Below are positions 22,655-34,516 of a stretch of 64,000 nt of DNA, piece by piece (the first letter of the stretch is position 1; each line of letters begins with the position of its first letter). The notes beneath the pieces were generated by a model. The model ran no database searches and was not told where the DNA came from. It saw only the letters and a program-made list of their open reading frames with translations. The position numbers and the translations under genes are program-made. This DNA is from Shewanella maritima (GTDB lineage: Bacteria > Pseudomonadota > Gammaproteobacteria > Enterobacterales > Shewanellaceae), in NCBI RefSeq assembly GCF_004295345.1, contig NZ_CP036200.1, positions 1,984,001 to 2,048,000 on the forward strand, given 5' to 3'.

Positions 22655-24184
22655 TTAATCAGTCTTTTCCTGATTGAACAGGGCTTCAATAAAGTCTGCC
22701 GCATCAAACGTACGTAAGTCATCAATTTGCTCGCCCACACCAATATGACGGATAGGGATATTGAACTTATCGGCAATAGCGAAGATCACCCCGCCTTTTG
22801 CGGTGCCGTCTAACTTACTTAGGGTAATACCGGTTACACCTACCGCTTCTTGGAATAGCTGCGCTTGGCTGATTGCGTTTTGACCTGTGCTTGCATCTAG
22901 GGTGAGCATCACTTCGTGCGGCGCGGTTTCATCGTGTTTCTTCATCACGCGCACCACTTTTTTCAGCTCTTCCATCAAGTGGCCTTTGTTCTGCAAGCGA
23001 CCAGCGGTATCGGCAATAAGCACATCTACATTACGTGCTTTGGCAGCTTGTAAGGCGTCGAACAATACAGAGGCGCTATCTGCGCCCGTATGTTGAGCTA
23101 CTACAGGAATGTCGTTGCGTTGTCCCCAAACTTGCAACTGCTCAACAGCCGCCGCGCGGAAAGTATCACCCGCAGCTAACATGACAGATTTACCCTGACT
23201 TTGGTACTGTTTTGCTAATTTACCAATAGTTGTGGTTTTACCTACACCGTTAACGCCCACCATTAAAATCACAAATGGACCTTCGCTGTTTTCTGGCACT
23301 AACGGCACAGCAACCGGCTCTAGCGTCTTTTGCATTTCTTCACGTAGCAGATCATAAAGCGCTTCAGCATCTTTTAGCTGCTTACGCGATGCATGTGACG
23401 TTAGGCTATCAATTAATTTAGTCGTAGTTTCAACACCAACATCGGCAATAAGCAGCTGTTCTTCAAGCTCTTCAAATAGATCGTCATCAATCTTCTTGCC
23501 TGAGAATAAGCCCATAAAGCCTGAACCAATATTCTCACTAGTGCGCATTAAGCCACGCTTAAGGCGGGCAAACATGCCCTCTTTCTTCGGCTTAGCTTGT
23601 GGCTCTGGTTGCGCCTCTTCAGCTTCTTCTTTAACAGCCTGCTCTGCCGCTAAACGCTCTGCTTCTTCCTTAGCCGCCTGCTCTGCTGCTAATCGCTCTG
23701 CTTCTTCCTTAGCAGCCTTTTCTGCTGCTAAACGCTCTGCTTCTTCTTTGGCTGCCTGCTCTGCTGCCAAACGCTCTGCTTCTTCTCTAGCGGCCTGCTC
23801 TGCTGCCAAACGCTCTGCTTCTTCTCTAACGGCCTGCTCTGCTGCTAGGCGCTCGGCTTCTTCTCTAACGGCCTGCTCTGCTGCTAGGCGCTCGGCTTCT
23901 TCTTTAGCTGCCTGCTCTGCTGCTAGACGCTTGGCTTCTTCTTTAGCTGCCTGCTCTGCTGCTAGACGCTCGGCTTCTTCTTTAGCTGCCTGTTCTGCTG
24001 CTAAACGTTCAGCTTCTTCTTTAGCTGCCTGTTCGTTAGCGGCTTGCTCAGCAGCTTCACGCTCTGCTTGTTGTTTAGCAGCATTTTCGGCATCGATTTG
24101 CGCTTGATTATCTTGTGATTCAACTACTTCAGGTTCTGGTTTCTTGTCTTTACGAAACCACGAAAAAAAGCCTTTCTTTGCCAT
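22655..24184 (-). CDS. ftsY: Signal recognition particle receptor FtsY
   Basis: SRP receptor GTPase that docks translating ribosomes at the inner membrane. Residues 1-15 ([15 protein letters not shown]) are a membrane-binding amphipathic start. Residues 25-200 are the acidic A domain, here an almost pure 13-residue repeat ([13 protein letters not shown]), ten full copies at residues 53-182, predicted to be a long charged helix. The NG domain follows, with G1 [16 protein letters not shown]3 [24 protein letters not shown] and G4 [14 protein letters not shown] ([11 protein letters not shown]). Length 509. It heads the ftsY-ftsE-ftsX operon and is divergent from rsmD. Confidence 0.96.
23639..24028 (-). 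repeat. 39-bp tandem repeat within ftsY
   Basis: Ten direct copies of a 39-bp unit encoding [13 protein letters not shown], with small variants ([39 protein letters not shown]). The array is in frame, so changes in copy number would lengthen or shorten the helix without breaking the gene. Confidence 0.92.
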
Positions 24185-26054: not shown

Positions 26055-26561
26055 CACTCAATCTCCAAATAGATATTCAAAGTATTCTAATATTTTTGTA
26101 GGAAATAATTTTAGATGCTTTTTGCTCCAAAAAACTGATTTCAGTCTAGGTTTTATTAGTAAACCCACAATTAAATAGTAAAAGTGAGACCTAGATCTAC
26201 AAATGCTAACAGCGTGTGCAGCTAATTAAGCGTTCGTTAAATTTCATACAATTTAACCAGTATGGCATGCTACTCACAATTAGGTAAATGGTTCATTTTA
26301 TTATCATGTTTTGGACTGAGCTAATATTCGGGCTTGTAATCAAAACTAAACAAAAATTCATCCCCAACCCCTTAGCAAAGCTAAATTTTTGTGAATTGAG
26401 TCAATGCACAGTGATACATGTGTGCTAACATCGCTCAAGTGAATCTGTCACAGCTATTGATGAATTAGCTTGTAAATTCGCGCGATAATAGTAAGTTCGC
26501 CCAATAAACGGCAGCTTGTTTGTTAGAACATAAACTGGTTCTTTATGCTATTTGGTTCTTT
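26055..26561. other. Divergent intergenic region cymA / copper locus
   Basis: About 500 nt, AT-rich, without a credible gene. It must hold the promoters of cymA and of the metal-efflux operon. On the cymA side, TGAGACCTAGATCTAC at 26185-26200 matches the CRP consensus at 11 of 16 positions and is only suggestive. TGTGA-N6-TCAAT at about 26395 is another half-matching site. I see no clear CueR- or CusR-type operator. Confidence 0.4.
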
Positions 26562-27074
26562 ATGCTAAAAATGCTCCACCACCGTTTGCTCACTACAGCC
26601 ACCTTGCTGACATTTATATGCCAGCTTGTGCTTGCTAATGGGTTATTAATGGTGCCAAGAGCACATGCACAAGAAGCAGTTGTTGAATTAACTCAAAATA
26701 CAGTCGCAGATTCACATGCCATGCATTCAGCTCATACCAAAGCAGCTGAAACAAGCACTATGCATTGTCATCAAACTGCCGCATCTACTCCTCAGCCAAT
26801 GGTAGAACAACCACAAACTGAAGAAGACTGCTGCAGTGAGCCTATGCCTAGCCACCTGGCTAGCGCGAAGACTAGCGACAGCAGTCATTGCTGTGACGGT
26901 GACAATCAATGTCAGTCTGATTGCAGTCACTGCCTTGTGATTTCAATTGCTGGCACCCTGTTAGACCTCACTCCTTGGTCTAGCAACCCTGTGCCAGAGT
27001 CTCCTCTGGCTAGCGTAATACCTCATTTCCACTCGATCGCTTTAGCACAAGATATACGACCTCCGATTGCCTAA
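26562..27074 (+). CDS. His/Cys-rich exported protein of the metal-efflux locus
   Basis: Unrecognised 170-residue protein beginning with a signal-like hydrophobic segment (LLTTATLLTFICQLVLANGLL). The mature region is rich in His, Met and Cys: SHAMHSAHTKAAE, MHCHQTAAS, EEDCCSEPM, SSHCCDGDNQCQSDCSHC, which looks like a soft-metal-binding surface. A second hydrophobic stretch (CLVISIAGTLLDLTPW) follows. ATG 26562 or 26571 is the likely start; a TTG reading from 26520 covers an upstream direct repeat (GGTTCTTTATGCT twice, 16 nt apart) and lacks a ribosome site. It lies 120 nt before the HMBD-repeat gene and probably serves in periplasmic copper or silver binding; this is inference. Confidence 0.65.
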   Translation: MLKMLHHRLLTTATLLTFICQLVLANGLLMVPRAHAQEAVVELTQNTVADSHAMHSAHTKAAETSTMHCHQTAASTPQPMVEQPQTEEDCCSEPMPSHLASAKTSDSSHCCDGDNQCQSDCSHCLVISIAGTLLDLTPWSSNPVPESPLASVIPHFHSIALAQDIRPPIA

Positions 27075-27194
27075 CTGCGTTCAGCATTAAGCATCAACAC
27101 CTAGCTACACCCTTTAATATTTTGTTGTTATTAAAGTCAAACGTGCGCCTATTTCAGGTCAAACGCTTTTGGCTCGTTTTCGATGGAGTTCATA

Positions 27195-27917
27195 ATGAAA
27201 ACCTTAATCCACATTGTTTTTTCAATTTTGCTATTAATTTCCTGGCATCCAGCAGTTCAAGCGAGTGACCACCAGCATCATCATTCAAGTGCTACCCAAG
27301 AGTATGTGTGCCCTATGCATGCCGATGAAACCGGCAAAAAAGGTGATACCTGCTCTAAGTGTGGTATGTACTTAGAAGCAGCTCAGAAAGCTGATGATAA
27401 GCAACATTGCAAGAATCACGGTAAACACTGTGATAAATGCAAGCATGCTAAATCTGATTGCAAAGACTGCAATGGCTGCGACAAGTGCAAAACCAAAGCT
27501 AATTTCAAAGATTGCAAGGGCTGCGACAAGTGCAAAACCAAAGCTAGTTGCAAAGACTGCAAGGGTTGCGATAAGTGCAAAGCCAAAGCTAGTTGCAAAG
27601 ACTGCAAAGGTTGCGACAAGTGCAAAGCCAAAGCTAGTTGCAAAGACTGCAAGGGTTGCGATAAGTGCAAAGCCAAAGCTAGTTGCAAAGACTGCAAAGG
27701 TTGCGACAAGTGCAAAGCCAAAGCTCATTGTCAGGACTGCAAAGGCTGTGATAAATGCCCAAATAAAACAACCCACGCTCATGCTAAAAAACCGACTCAT
27801 GTATGCCCAATGAACTCGGCGATTACTGGTTTTGAGGGTGACACTTGCCCAAAATGTGGAATGAATTTAGAGCCAATTGCTAAGCAAAACGCTCACTCAA
27901 GCCACGCACATCACTAA
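27195..27917 (+). CDS. Exported heavy-metal-binding protein with Cys-rich 15-residue repeats
   Basis: 240-residue protein with a signal peptide (MKTLIHIVFSILLLISWHPAVQAS), a His cluster, then an HMBD-type domain (YVCPMHADETGKKGDTCSKCGM). The centre is seven tandem 15-residue units of the form CKDCKGCDKCKAKAS, each with four Cys. A second HMBD-type domain closes the protein (HVCPMNSAITGFEGDTCPKCGMNLEP). The layout HMBD - metallothionein-like array - HMBD suggests a high-capacity periplasmic binder for Cu/Ag or similar metals that loads the CusBA pump encoded next. The GGAG 8 nt before ATG 27195 decides the start over ATG 27183. I know no named family with this architecture. Confidence 0.85.
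   Translation: MKTLIHIVFSILLLISWHPAVQASDHQHHHSSATQEYVCPMHADETGKKGDTCSKCGMYLEAAQKADDKQHCKNHGKHCDKCKHAKSDCKDCNGCDKCKTKANFKDCKGCDKCKTKASCKDCKGCDKCKAKASCKDCKGCDKCKAKASCKDCKGCDKCKAKASCKDCKGCDKCKAKAHCQDCKGCDKCPNKTTHAHAKKPTHVCPMNSAITGFEGDTCPKCGMNLEPIAKQNAHSSHAHH
27459..27773 (+). repeat. 45-bp tandem repeat encoding Cys-rich units
   Basis: Seven direct 45-bp units. Units 3 and 5 are identical, and units 4 and 6 are identical except for the last codons, so a 90-bp pair was duplicated recently. Units 1, 2 and 7 are more diverged. There are no spacers, so this is not a CRISPR array. Confidence 0.95.
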
Positions 27918-27940
27918 AGACGGCAGTGGAGATAGGTATT

Positions 27941-29680
27941 ATGCAAACCATCAACAAGTTATCGGTGCGCTCATCAAGCTTGAGCAAAGTGAGCTTAGCC
28001 ATAACCATTGCAGCGTCTATGAGCTTGCTGCCGCTAACGACGGCACTAGCCAGTGACGAGCATGCTCATCATGCAACCCAGCATGAAGAGCACAAGACTC
28101 ATACGGGCGAACACGAGCAGTTGGATTATTACTGCCCGATGCATCCAGAAGAGCGCAGCCATGAGAAAGGCCGCTGCCCACAGTGCAATATGTTCCTCAT
28201 TAAAGATGAATCTAAAGACGCGGCTACAAAAGCGCAATTGGACTATTACTGCCCTATGCACCCTGAAGAGCGCAGCCATGAGAAAGGCCGCTGCCCGCAA
28301 TGTAATATGTTTCTGATTAAGGATGAAAGCAGTGACTCTGCTGATAACGGACACGTTCATAATGCTGCAGCGCACACACATGAGCATAGTCAATCGATAC
28401 TCGACCAACCCAAGCCTGCGCTAAGTGAAATAACTCAAGCTCAAGCTGACACGCCATCAAGTGCAACAGAGCAATCAAATGCTATGGGCAAACAAAGCAA
28501 TAATGTGAAATATGTTTGCCCTATGCACCCGCATATTGTGTCTGACACACCTGACTCTTGCCCTATTTGCGGCATGGATTTAGAGCCCGTAGAGATTGGC
28601 GGCGTGGGAGAAGAAGTGGTGGTTGGCGTATCAGGCGGTATGCAACAAGCACTGGGTATGCGCTCAGAAACCGTAGCCAAAGACACATTATGGAAGTTCG
28701 TCAAAACCATTGGCACCGTGGAATATAACGAGAATGCCATCGGTCATGCCCATACCCGAGTCGATGGCTGGCTAGAAACCCTGATGGTTCACAACGTTGG
28801 TCAAAAAGTAAAACAAGGCCAGCTAGTGTACGAGCTATATTCGCCTGAACTTGTCAGCGCCCAAGATGACTATGTACAAGCGCTTGATTACTTAAAACAA
28901 GACAAAGTCCGCGGAAAAGTCTTGCTCCGCAAAGCCCGCTTACGCCTTGAGCTACTCGGCATGAGCTCACATACCATTAAGCAGCTAGAACAAACCCGTG
29001 AAACCATCTATCGGGTACCTTTCTACGCCGAGCAAGATGGCTTTGTCAGCGAACTAAACGTACGCCACGGCATGTATGTTCAACCCGGTGACACCTTGTT
29101 TGAGATTGTCGATTTAAGCAGTGTTTGGGTGATTGCTGACGTATTTGAAAACGAGCAAAGCTGGCTAGAGCTAGATCGCCCCGTTGAAGTATCAGCCGCA
29201 GCTCAAGGCCTATTCGACCTTGAGTCGACCATTGACTATATCTACCCAGAGCTCGACCCAGTATCACGGGCGATGCGAGTCAGAGTTAAACTTGATAACC
29301 CACAAAAGAGCCTCAAACCGGGCACCCTAGTTGAAGTGAAACTTTTTGGTGGCCCTAAGCGAGACATCATTACAATACCGACCGAAGCGTTGATCCTAAC
29401 TGGCCGTGAAAACCGTGTGGTGGTGCAGCGCAGCGACAATCAATTTGCCTCAGTTGAAGTCAAAGTCGGCATGATTGCCCAAGGCAAAGCTGAGATCATC
29501 AGTGGCCTTAACGTGGGCGACAAAGTGATTGTATCTGGGCAGTTCCTGCTGGACTCTGAAGCCAGTATTCAAGGCAGTTTGCAGCGTCTAAGTACCAGTA
29601 ATACCCAGGATGCTGATAGCGCTGATGAACATAGCACTAGTACACATAGCAGTACTGACCACAGCCATCACAACCATTAG
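27941..29680 (+). CDS. cusB: CusB-like RND periplasmic adaptor with three HMBD domains
   Basis: Membrane-fusion protein of a heavy-metal (Cu/Ag type) RND pump, linking CusA to an outer-membrane channel. The protein (579 residues) has an N-terminal signal region, a His-rich segment, two nearly identical HMBD-type domains (YYCPMHPEERSHEKGRCPQC, residues about 63-89 and 102-128), a third (YVCPMHPHIVSDTPDSCPIC, about 192-218), then the usual adaptor core (GWLETLMVHNVGQKVKQGQLVYELYSPEL lipoyl half, helical hairpin, FVSELNVRHGMYVQPGDTLFEI, beta-barrel and membrane-proximal domain). The C-terminus is His-rich (HSSTDHSHHNH). GGAGATAGG precedes ATG 27941. The gene lies 23 nt after the repeat gene and 9 nt before cusA. 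Confidence 0.93.
   Translation: MQTINKLSVRSSSLSKVSLAITIAASMSLLPLTTALASDEHAHHATQHEEHKTHTGEHEQLDYYCPMHPEERSHEKGRCPQCNMFLIKDESKDAATKAQLDYYCPMHPEERSHEKGRCPQCNMFLIKDESSDSADNGHVHNAAAHTHEHSQSILDQPKPALSEITQAQADTPSSATEQSNAMGKQSNNVKYVCPMHPHIVSDTPDSCPICGMDLEPVEIGGVGEEVVVGVSGGMQQALGMRSETVAKDTLWKFVKTIGTVEYNENAIGHAHTRVDGWLETLMVHNVGQKVKQGQLVYELYSPELVSAQDDYVQALDYLKQDKVRGKVLLRKARLRLELLGMSSHTIKQLEQTRETIYRVPFYAEQDGFVSELNVRHGMYVQPGDTLFEIVDLSSVWVIADVFENEQSWLELDRPVEVSAAAQGLFDLESTIDYIYPELDPVSRAMRVRVKLDNPQKSLKPGTLVEVKLFGGPKRDIITIPTEALILTGRENRVVVQRSDNQFASVEVKVGMIAQGKAEIISGLNVGDKVIVSGQFLLDSEASIQGSLQRLSTSNTQDADSADEHSTSTHSSTDHSHHNH
28121..28354 (+). repeat. 117-bp tandem duplication of an HMBD domain within cusB
   Basis: Two adjacent copies (28121-28237 and 28238-28354) encode the same YYCPMHPEERSHEKGR..CPQCNMFLIKDES domain with only synonymous or tail differences, an in-frame domain duplication. 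Confidence 0.93.
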
Positions 29681-29689
29681 GGGGCGTTT

Positions 29690-32600
29690 ATGTTAGCAAA
29701 CATTATTGGTGCCTCGATTAAGCACCGCGCGATGGTGCTGGTCTTTAGTGTACTGATAGCCTTAGTTGGCTATCAGGCAATGCGCACTACCCCACTTGAT
29801 GCACTGCCTGACTTATCAGACGTACAAGTTATTGTAAAAACCTCATACCCAGGGCAAGCACCGCAGCTCGTTGAGGACCAAGTCACCTATCCACTATCAA
29901 CCGCCATGCTTGCTGTGCCTGGCGCCAAAACCGTGCGCGGTTTTTCCATGTTTGGCGACTCGTATGTGTACATCATCTTTGAAGATGGTACCGACATCTA
30001 CTGGGCGCGCTCGCGAGTGTTGGAGTATCTGTCGCAAACCCAAAGTCAGTTGCCGGAAAACGTGACACCAACATTAGGGCCTGATGCCTCAGGCGTTGGC
30101 TGGGTATTCCAATATGCATTAGTTGATCGCAAGGGCAAGCATGACCTTGCACAACTTCGTTCGCTACAAGACTGGTTCTTAAAGTTAGAGCTACAGAGCG
30201 TCGCAGGCGTTTCGGAAATCGCCACCATCGGCGGCATGGAGCAGTCTTATCAAATCATTGTCGACCCGCATAAGTTGGCCCTGTATCAAATTGATTTGAT
30301 GACAGTAAAAAACGCCCTTGATAACGCCAATAGCTCAACTGGCGGCTCGGTCATCGAGATGGCCGAAGCTGAGTACATGATCACCTCAAAAGGCTATCGG
30401 CAAACATTGGATGACTTTGCTGAGATCCCACTGGGTATTGTTTCTGAAGCTGGCACGCCAGTATTAATGAAAGATGTTGCTCAGCTGCGCACTGGCCCAA
30501 GTGCAAGACGCGGCATTGCCGAGCTTGATGGGCAAGGCGAAGTCGTTGGCGGCATTGTGGTGATGCGCTATGGCGAAAATGCACTGGCGACCATTAATAA
30601 CGTTAAGCAAAAGCTGCAAGAGGTCGAGAATGGCCTGCCTGATGGCGTAGAGTTAGTGATCACTTACGACCGCTCTGAGCTTATCCTTAATTCAGTAGAC
30701 AATCTCAAGCACAAGGTGCTTGAAGAAATGCTGGTAGTTGCCGTTATTTGCTTGCTATTCCTGCTGCATGCACGCTCAACCTTGGTTGCGATTATCTCGC
30801 TGCCGATTTCGATTCTCATCAGTTTTATCGTGATGAACATCATCGGCGTCAATGCCAACATTATGAGCTTAGGCGGGATTGCCATTGCCATTGGCGCTGT
30901 GGTCGATGCAGCCATCGTGATGGTAGAGAATGTGCACAAACACCTTGAGCAATACCGTGAGCAGCGTGGTGGACAAGCCCCCACGGGTGAAGCGCATTGG
31001 CAACTGGTAAAAACCGCGTCGATTGAAGTTGGCCCAGCGCTGTTCTTTAGCTTGCTGATCATTACCTTGAGCTTCGTGCCTGTGTTTGCGCTAGAAGCGC
31101 AAGAAGGCAGATTGTTCCACCCGCTCGCCTACACTAAAACCTTTGCCATGGCAGCGAGCGCTCTGTTAGCGATTACGTTAATTCCAGTTTTAATGGGCTA
31201 TTTTGTACGCGGAAAAATTCCTGCTGAGCATAAAAACCCATTAAGCCGTGTGCTGATAGCAATATACGAGCCGCTACTTCGCCTAGTACTGCGCTTCCCT
31301 AAGCTGACTATCATGCTCGCCTTAGTGGCTTTAGTTAGTGCTTACTATCCTATGTCGAAAATGGGTAGCGAGTTTATGCCTGAGCTGGAAGAAGGCGACT
31401 TGCTGTATATGCCGACCACACTGCCGAGCGTGAGCTCAGGTAAGGCCGCTGAAATCTTGCAGCAAACTGACCGCTTAATTAAAACAGTGCCTGAGGTAAA
31501 ACGGGTATTTGGTAAAGTCGGCCGCGCGATGACCGCTACCGATCCTGCACCGCTGACCATGTTAGAAACCACCATCATGCTTAACCCAAGGGACACCTGG
31601 CGTGAGGGTATGACGCTTGAAGGGATCATTGCAGAGCTGCAAAAAACCGTCAAAGTGCCCGGGATGACTAACGCTTGGGTGCAACCGATTAAAACCCGCA
31701 TTGATATGCTATCAACCGGTGTACGTACGCCCGTGGGCATAAAGATTTCTGGCGCAGATATTGATGAGCTGCAACGTATCGGCACTGAGATTGAAGCCGT
31801 GGTAGCTAAGTTGCCAGGCACACTGTCAGCCTTTGCCCAGCGTACCAGTGGCGGTCGTTATATCGATATTGAGCCCAATCTTAAAAACGCGGCTCGCTAT
31901 GGTATGACACTGCGTGACATTCAAGATGTGGTGCAAATGGCCATCGGCGGCATGCAAGTAGGTCAGTCGATTCAAGGACAAGAGCGCTACCCCATCAATA
32001 TTCGCTACCCGCGTGAGCTGCGCGATAGTATTGAAAAACTGCGCCAGCTGCCTGTGCTGACTAAAACCGGTAAATACTTACCACTGGGCAATCTTGCTGA
32101 GATCAGCATTAGTGATGGCGCGCCCATGCTCGCCAGCGAAAATGGCCGCTTAATCAGCTGGGTATTTGTCGACTTACAAGATGTGTCCATTGGTGAGTAC
32201 ATACAAACTGCTCGCGCCGCGTTAGATGAGCAAATCAAACTGCCACCGCGTTACAGCTACACCTTTGCCGGCCAATACGAGTACATGCAGCGGGTTGAAG
32301 CTAAAATGCAATTGGTTATCCCACTGATGATTGCGGTGATCTTTATGCTGCTAATGATGACGTTTGGCTCGTTCACTCAAGCTTCGGTGATCATGCTCAG
32401 CTTGCCGTTTTCTTTGGTTGGCAGCGCCTGGCTGTTATATGCATTGAACTTTAATTTCTCGGTCGCGGTGTCTGTGGGCATGATAGCCCTAGCAGGTGTT
32501 GCCGCAGAGTTTGGTGTGGTAATGCAGGTGTACTTAAACAATGCCATTAAAGCCAAGCAACAAAGCGGCGACTACAACCAACGCGGTGATTTGGTTGATG

Positions 32601-32824
32601 CCTTGATTCACGGTGCAGTAATGCGCATTCGCCCTAAGGCAATGACGGTTGCGACTATCTTCTTTGGTCTGCTGCCAATTATGTGGGGCAGTGGTACGGG
32701 TAACGAAGTCATGCAGAAAATTGCCGCGCCTATGGTTGGCGGCATGGTCACAGCGCCAATTCTGTCACTGTTCGTGATCCCGGCGATTTACCTGCTGATT
32801 TACGGGCGCAAGCTGAAGAAGTAA
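29690..32824 (+). CDS. cusA: CusA-like heavy-metal RND efflux pump
   Basis: Inner-membrane proton-driven pump of the HME-RND family that expels Cu(I)/Ag(I)-type ions. At 1044 residues it has normal length, with 12 helices and two large periplasmic loops. Recognisable are the N-terminus (TPLDALPDLSDVQVIVKTSYPGQAP), the helix-4 proton relay block (MSLGGIAIAIGAVVDAAIVMVENVHKH; the DxxD/E-type acidic residues of HME pumps), and the Met-rich periplasmic region (GRAMTATDPAPLTMLETTIML). AGGGGGCG before the ATG is a strong ribosome site. Last gene of the operon; no outer-membrane factor gene follows, so the channel is supplied elsewhere. Confidence 0.95.
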   Translation: MLANIIGASIKHRAMVLVFSVLIALVGYQAMRTTPLDALPDLSDVQVIVKTSYPGQAPQLVEDQVTYPLSTAMLAVPGAKTVRGFSMFGDSYVYIIFEDGTDIYWARSRVLEYLSQTQSQLPENVTPTLGPDASGVGWVFQYALVDRKGKHDLAQLRSLQDWFLKLELQSVAGVSEIATIGGMEQSYQIIVDPHKLALYQIDLMTVKNALDNANSSTGGSVIEMAEAEYMITSKGYRQTLDDFAEIPLGIVSEAGTPVLMKDVAQLRTGPSARRGIAELDGQGEVVGGIVVMRYGENALATINNVKQKLQEVENGLPDGVELVITYDRSELILNSVDNLKHKVLEEMLVVAVICLLFLLHARSTLVAIISLPISILISFIVMNIIGVNANIMSLGGIAIAIGAVVDAAIVMVENVHKHLEQYREQRGGQAPTGEAHWQLVKTASIEVGPALFFSLLIITLSFVPVFALEAQEGRLFHPLAYTKTFAMAASALLAITLIPVLMGYFVRGKIPAEHKNPLSRVLIAIYEPLLRLVLRFPKLTIMLALVALVSAYYPMSKMGSEFMPELEEGDLLYMPTTLPSVSSGKAAEILQQTDRLIKTVPEVKRVFGKVGRAMTATDPAPLTMLETTIMLNPRDTWREGMTLEGIIAELQKTVKVPGMTNAWVQPIKTRIDMLSTGVRTPVGIKISGADIDELQRIGTEIEAVVAKLPGTLSAFAQRTSGGRYIDIEPNLKNAARYGMTLRDIQDVVQMAIGGMQVGQSIQGQERYPINIRYPRELRDSIEKLRQLPVLTKTGKYLPLGNLAEISISDGAPMLASENGRLISWVFVDLQDVSIGEYIQTARAALDEQIKLPPRYSYTFAGQYEYMQRVEAKMQLVIPLMIAVIFMLLMMTFGSFTQASVIMLSLPFSLVGSAWLLYALNFNFSVAVSVGMIALAGVAAEFGVVMQVYLNNAIKAKQQSGDYNQRGDLVDALIHGAVMRIRPKAMTVATIFFGLLPIMWGSGTGNEVMQKIAAPMVGGMVTAPILSLFVIPAIYLLIYGRKLKK

Positions 32825-34179: not shown

Positions 34180-34516
34180 AGACTTATTCCTTAAATCACA
34201 TGGAGAATAGACACATGTAAAAACAAACATCTAACTGTGCCTAATCGCGCTAGTAAAACACAACTGACTGACTGCTTACAGATTTTTTACAAAAGTAAAC
34301 CAAATGAACGACTCACGGGCGGAAATTCCGTACTCGCGGCGAGAGATATAGAAAGAGATATAGAAAGAGATATAGAAAGAGATATAGGAATAACAACGGC
34401 AGTGAAGCTAATGATAGCAATCGTAACTTATAGGCTTTCTATCGACAGCTTCAGTAAGCCACTTATGACCAAACTCAACAGTTAAGTGCGACACATAAAC
34501 TCGACACGCGCCAAAT
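34180..34516. other. Intergenic region with 12-bp tandem repeat
   Basis: About 340 nt upstream of serine hydrolase A. It contains its ribosome site and presumably its promoter, and a short tandem repeat at 34343-34388. An 82-codon plus-strand frame runs across the repeat (ERDIERDI...) but has no ribosome site or recognisable composition, so I do not call it a gene. Confidence 0.6.
34343..34388. repeat. 12-bp microsatellite, 3.8 copies
   Basis: GAGATATAGAAA repeated almost perfectly (three full units plus GAGATATAGG). It lies about 165 nt upstream of serine hydrolase A. Confidence 0.9.

Follow-up and report, generated by a model that had tools for sequence, protein, structure and literature searches.

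The 240-residue protein described here, hereafter X, is proposed to act in the periplasm as a sponge and buffer whose thiols take up Cu(I)/Ag(I), a function that is predicted throughout from comparative analysis and that we regard as, on balance, probable. It is coded in the window (the whole 64-kb stretch of DNA that was analysed, part of a 4.72-Mb single-contig genome) and combines a signal-peptide-like start with a tandem cysteine-rich array framed by two HMBDs (Table 1). As far as profile searches reach, this HMBD-array-HMBD layout is unnamed in Pfam and NCBIfam, whereas the metal sponge as a kind is already known. X is not a one-off: it is one form of a genus-wide HMBD protein, the linker of which has been expanded in one clade.

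Table 1. Features of the X locus in the window
Feature	Position	Strand	Basis or remark
CutF/CopL-like exported leader ORF, CxxxCxxC, C-terminal RPPIA	26520..27074	+	anatomy; start codon uncertain
Shine-Dalgarno-like GGAG before ATG 27195	27185..27188	+	read directly
X protein, with a signal-like start and a Cys array between two HMBDs	27195..27917	+	
Signal-peptide-like N-terminus, cleavage suggested after VQA	27195..27263	+	by eye; model helix residues 4-15
HMBD 1, residues 37-61	27303..27377	+	PF19335
Irregular Cys/His/Lys lead-in to array, 3 Cys	27408..27458	+	
Seven 45-bp units, consensus CKDCKGCDKCKAKAS, 27 Cys	27459..27773	+	Tandem Repeats Finder and in-register reading
HMBD 2	27801..27875	+	PF19335; 2011801-2011875 on the contig
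CusB-type adaptor, three N-terminal HMBDs	27926..29680	+	PF16576, PF19335 (3 stretches)
117-bp tandem duplication in CusB gene, holds two of three HMBDs	28117-28327	+	Tandem Repeats Finder, 88% matches
CusA-type RND pump	29690..32824	+	TIGR00914, 1214 bits

Domain architecture and the cysteine array

An alternative in-frame ATG for X lies at 27183, but the start at 27195 is favoured because of the GGAG that precedes it. The signal peptide initially proposed agrees with the N-terminus as judged by eye, and the proposed pair of HMBDs around the array was recovered by the domain search, PF19335 matching in two stretches (47.7 bits against a Pfam cut-off of 23.6). At E up to 0.1 this was the only Pfam match, covering just the two ends, and NCBIfam returned nothing, in keeping with the earlier remark that no named family has this layout; the metallothionein models of both collections likewise failed to match X at that threshold. 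Both domains of X, through Met41, Cys56 and Met58 in the first and Met206, Cys221 and Met223 in the second, have these residues at the positions of the Ag+ ligands of the LpCopA MBD. In LpCopA Ag+ is assigned to M44, C59 and M61, and the domain is said possibly to accept other metals too, such as Zn2+ (PMC11970713).

Between the two domains there are indeed seven 15-residue units, as first counted; four cysteines in each was an overstatement, for unit 2, which starts with Phe, has lost one and retains three. The 36 cysteines of X thus comprise 27 in the array, three in the lead-in and three in each HMBD. The description of the array as metallothionein-like is supported. C-x2-C-x2-C-x2-C occurs six times. 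When the mature protein was shuffled 20,000 times with its composition kept, no shuffle reached six, although cysteine richness itself accounts for part of the spacing, because the best shuffle reached five. At the DNA level Tandem Repeats Finder reports a 45-bp period at 27458-27745 (6.4 copies, 91% matches), with a GC fraction of 0.454 in the array against 0.458 in the window. Unit 5 repeats the DNA sequence of unit 3 exactly, and only the last codon separates unit 4 from unit 6, from which a recent duplication of two-unit blocks appears likely. Unit 7 is the most diverged of the seven, and units 1, 2 and 7 have amino-acid sequences unlike those of the remaining units. ORFs on both strands within the array were rejected as shadow ORFs, that is, products of the repeat.

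An AlphaFold model built with 19 family members as input gave high confidence for the cores of the HMBDs, with pLDDT of 92-95 overall (94-95 for residues 41-60 and 92-95 for residues 201-230), and low confidence for residues 81-190 (pLDDT 42-54; pTM 0.27 for the whole model); the array is predicted to be disordered. The best Foldseek match was the LpCopA domain 8ovl (probability 0.91, TM 0.60 on the target, E 0.36), with none at E 0.001, and a sequence search of the PDB found nothing at E up to 1.

The spacing of CxxCxxCxxC resembles that of ferredoxins, Shewanella are rich in c-type cytochromes, and a NapC/NirT-type cytochrome gene lies near X on the opposite strand. An iron-sulfur or haem protein is nevertheless extremely unlikely and was rejected, since X lacks the CxxCH haem motif, matches no ferredoxin or cytochrome family in Pfam or NCBIfam, and has a start that to the eye is Sec-like and not twin-arginine.

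Family X across the genus and the origin of the array

A search with X gave matches at E up to 0.001 in 119 of the 129 genus genomes, the weak ones being to CusB HMBDs. In 93 genomes the locus was read directly (the window and fetched stretches of 92 relatives, with a second stretch for G027), and X is present in all except one (G059). In the remaining 36, where an HMBD in an open frame of fewer than 300 residues was counted as X on frame length alone, the PF19335 search added 10, giving 102 of 129 genomes with X and 27 from which it appears absent. Each of the 92 proteins read has one HMBD or more. Cysteines between the HMBDs are bimodally distributed, with 0-7 in 85 proteins (one, from G001, being intermediate with seven) and 15-41 in the seven array species (15, 20, 21, 22, 25, 30 and 41). 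None is found in 36 proteins, 19 of which have a single HMBD; here HMBDs were counted by a motif of our own and single-HMBD proteins scored as zero. Many members have short linkers with a CDxCPNK/CDNCPKH-type motif, which is a plausible sequence seed of the arrays. Repeats in the linker are not confined to cysteine-rich ones, as X of G166 (L194) has another, His-rich repeat of 19 residues with one Cys in 5.4 copies.

The arrays of the seven species are built from units of 9, 14, 15, 18 or about 21 residues: 15 in the window, 14 of the CCDNCPNKAESKGK type in G030, G119 and G149, nine of the CDNCPNKGK type in G144, 18 in G122, and an irregular unit of about 21 in G027. Despite this change in unit length and sequence the cysteines stay dense, and the main unit is a whole number of codons in all seven. 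Six chromosomal genes (RpoH, FtsX, FtsE, FtsY, RsmD and NapC-like) were aligned. Of the 93 genomes, 59 had stretches covering enough of these genes to be included, and a species tree was built from a subset of 30 that we chose to include all seven array species. In it the seven form one clade with SH-aLRT support of 99 (a quick method, no bootstrap; G149 is 45% filled). Since they form one clade and yet differ in their units, the linker was apparently re-amplified after one likely origin: a single gain of the array suffices, likely followed by turnover of the units. Several independent origins, which the differing units had suggested, were rejected because all seven species fall in that clade.

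These repeats raise the question of whether the array is merely low-complexity DNA, a disordered linker that expanded by chance through slippage and has no function. The predicted disorder, the divergence of units 1, 2 and 7 with the cysteine lost from unit 2, and the frequency of repeats in the family (a tandem array or duplicated block in 33 of 92 X genes by Tandem Repeats Finder, with HMBD-plus-linker duplications common) are what such a process would give. We consider it improbable, because cysteines have stayed dense through five different units in seven species and the main units comprise whole codons in every one of them.

That 36 of the 92 proteins have no inter-HMBD cysteine while every one has an HMBD implies that X need not have begun as a thiol store. 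The ancestral protein, with its HMBDs and often a few extra cysteines, probably exchanged or sensed metal as part of the cus operon. The same observation favours X as a regulatory buffer, namely a set-point or sensor that fixes the free Cu(I) level for the HMBDs of CusB and the nascent leader described below, and not a bulk store. It would accord with the related N-terminal domains of LpCopA and SilB, which have been proposed as sensors (PMC11970713). This alternative is unlikely, as it leaves unexplained the 15-41 inter-domain cysteines re-amplified in one clade.

Among 369 genomes drawn from the same class a strong array match came only from the window genome. Seven further genomes matched weakly (E 3e-6 to 6e-4, 23-36% identity), and the other array species were not among the matches of this draw. 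A scan of 84,980 species by six 8-residue patterns, which misses relatives without such patterns, gave 57 loci, 31 titled Shewanella and 26 not. Those 26 show either HMBD proteins that lack an array of this kind or, in three cases, Planctomycetota proteins; L090 gave no readable protein. The Planctomycetota proteins (L056:5893-6381, L073:5890-6375 and L076:5893-6381) resemble X in their signal-like N-terminus and CKGCDKC-type repeat cores, with 34-37 cysteines in 161-162 residues, and differ from it in having no HMBD. The genes scanned around L076 code for a RimK-type ligase, a molybdopterin oxidoreductase and a cytochrome-like protein, and not for a metal pump; these arrays are probably convergent with that of X. 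A plasmid search gave no match at E up to 1e-5, and no name or experiment for X was recognised among the best literature matches listed.

Genomic context: pump, leader and CusF

As initially noted, X sits beside CusBA: cusB and then cusA follow directly, and the HMBD type of X is shared with CusB, whose own HMBD matches that of LpCopA by sequence. The window CusA has Met at all three positions aligned to residues 573, 623 and 672 of E. coli CusA, which we take to be its three-Met Cu(I)/Ag(I) site. The usual order in the genus is leader, X, cusB, cusA, often near fts-rsmD genes. X lies just upstream of cusB in 87 of 92 loci, a contig end being reached in two and X lying elsewhere in three, a count restricted to ORFs on the CusB strand within the fetched stretches. 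These three are the array species G027, G144 and G122, in which the cusBA locus has its own leader and no separate X, while a leader and X occupy a second locus whose flanking DNA is shared in part. The array protein can thus be coded away from the pump genes, and proximity to cusBA is usual and not required.

The window CusA shares 90-92% identity with one group of CusA proteins of the genus and 72-77% with the rest (L111-L203). A CusA tree of 89 genomes (FastTree, without support values) does not unite the seven array species, G144 and the window standing apart from the other five in the part of the tree listed. The history of cusBA may therefore differ from that of the species, and exchange of cusBA between lineages is possible on this tree. 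By our own pattern the CusB frame of G144 contains six HMBD motifs, so that HMBD number varies in CusB too. Elsewhere in the window there are a 39-bp repeat of 10.5 copies in the N-terminal part of an FtsY-like gene (23622-24031) and a perfect 12-bp repeat of 3.8 copies (34342-34387).

Of the 92 loci read, 90 have a leader ORF upstream of X. That of the window is CutF/CopL-like by anatomy only and not a scored family member: we use the term "like" because it has no Pfam match, including to DUF2946, at E up to 0.1, and scores 26.6 bits against NF033807 (CopL, NCBIfam), under the cut-off of 40. A CxxxCxxC motif is present in 87 of the 90 leaders, which were picked by position, length and CxxC/CxxxC, so that the cysteine motif is partly built in; a C-terminal [RKQ]PP plus a few residues is found in 88, as RPPIA or KPPIA in 73. 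The CxxxC motif, the C-terminal proline motif and the metal genes downstream are shared with CutF-like proteins, whose nascent chain is reported to sense periplasmic copper (PMC9973294). This raises the possibility that the leader acts as a copper-sensing nascent chain for the entire efflux operon. RNA folding gave no signal over the leader-X intergenic region of the window (z -0.42) and no general one at the X start codons of 92 loci, which are paired in 39 with a median shuffle fraction of 0.47; small hairpins over the Shine-Dalgarno sequence are frequent in relatives, with shuffles coming close: the mean is 4.3 bp in the 83 of 92 loci that were scored and 3.9 bp after shuffling. A search of 90 upstream stretches with a guessed start for CusR-, CueR- and CopR-like boxes was unproductive, with no CusR- or CueR-like box. 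The lack of a fold signal and of CusR- or CueR-like boxes weakens the case for coupling through the leader.

This context also bears on whether the CxxC pairs serve a thiol-disulfide role, as a redox buffer or a disulfide-stabilised scaffold that binds no metal. In the oxidising periplasm such pairs could form disulfides, which counts against a sponge; the signal-like start, the abundance of CxxC and the even total of 36 cysteines would suit such a role. We hold it to be very unlikely in view of the copper-type HMBDs, the leader and the pump context, and X has no thioredoxin-like match in Pfam or NCBIfam.

The CusF domain PF11604 was found in 21 of 127 genus genomes searched and in none of the seven array genomes, and X itself does not match it at E up to 0.1. 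CusF accompanies X in 9 of 102 genomes and occurs in 12 of 27 without X (Fisher p 6e-5, uncorrected for kinship; two of the 129 genomes fell outside the PF11604 search and were counted as lacking CusF). The array does not specifically replace CusF, because no CusF was found in 93 of the 102 X genomes, most of them array-less. Among published periplasmic copper carriers the genus search covered CusF only, and a survey lists CusF, CueP and Pco proteins (PcoC and others) in some Shewanella (PMC3548706).

Comparison with known systems and proposed function

The ends of X share PF19335 and the Met, Cys, Met ligand positions with the LpCopA MBD (8ovl), to which the SilB N-MBD is related, but in those proteins the HMBD is the tail of a pump, whereas X is a free, probably exported protein with two HMBDs around a cysteine array. 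If its predicted role is correct, X belongs with CusF among the small proteins that handle Cu(I)/Ag(I) for cus systems in the periplasm; the two differ in domain, CusF having PF11604 and X matching PF19335 alone in Pfam. Bacterial metallothioneins such as SmtA, MymT and PmtA have the dense cysteines of X, and differ in that X has tandem repeats, a signal-like start and flanking HMBDs. Metallothioneins are described as folding on binding metal, and Csp1 as an exported, thiol-rich Cu(I) store with many cysteines (PMC7558416). X is cysteine-rich and probably exported like Csp1, but Csp1 carries a Tat signal and is folded beforehand into a four-helix bundle, while X has a Sec-like start (by eye), an array predicted to be disordered, and a model that shows no such bundle but has low confidence in the array. 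Exported Csp1 (PMC7558416) and PmtA, a metallothionein of bacteria that has been detected at the cell surface (PMC11237414), make the earlier statement that metallothioneins are normally cytoplasmic weaker than it was worded.

A functional counterpart may be SilE/PcoE, periplasmic proteins with many soft-metal sites that are part of a Cu/Ag efflux system, a putative likeness to X. SilE is characterised as disordered when free, binding multiple ions and acting as a sponge beside the Sil pump (PMC8686694). It is described with His and Met ligands and X has cysteines and HMBDs, a comparison by description in which homology is not claimed. A thiol analogue of SilE/PcoE is the best explanation that our analysis offers for X. 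It is favoured because the HMBDs retain the LpCopA Ag+ ligands and CusA its three-Met site, because the leader and the place upstream of cusB are so widely kept, because cysteines stay dense while the units change, because CusF was not found in the array genomes and is rarer with X, and because SilE provides a published precedent (PMC8686694). The apparent absence of X from 27 genomes and the other periplasmic copper carriers reported in some Shewanella (PMC3548706) weaken it. Of the two functions suggested at the outset, sponge or loader, the sponge fits best, and a dedicated loader is less favoured because X is not beside cusBA in three of the seven array species.

As a sponge, the array would trap surplus Cu(I)/Ag(I) in thiolate clusters, as metallothioneins do, and protect the envelope until CusBA removes the metal. 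Less firmly, the HMBDs at its ends might trade metal with CusB through ligand swapping, and X might thereby stand in partly for CusF. The CutF/CopL-like leader could couple X production to periplasmic copper, and repeat amplification could tune capacity. One tentative extension is that, through the array, an ancestral metal-exchange protein became a store of high capacity, which loads CusBA instead of CusF and evolves rapidly in capacity as repeat units are gained or replaced; we put this forward as possible but doubtful.

If the sponge reading is true, the genus holds a natural series of 0 to 41 inter-domain cysteines in one envelope family, so that relatives could be compared to see how thiol capacity affects their handling of copper and silver. 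It also raises the question of how such clusters could remain functional in the periplasm, and would make X a candidate for the role of CusF in the many cus systems of the genus in which CusF was not found.
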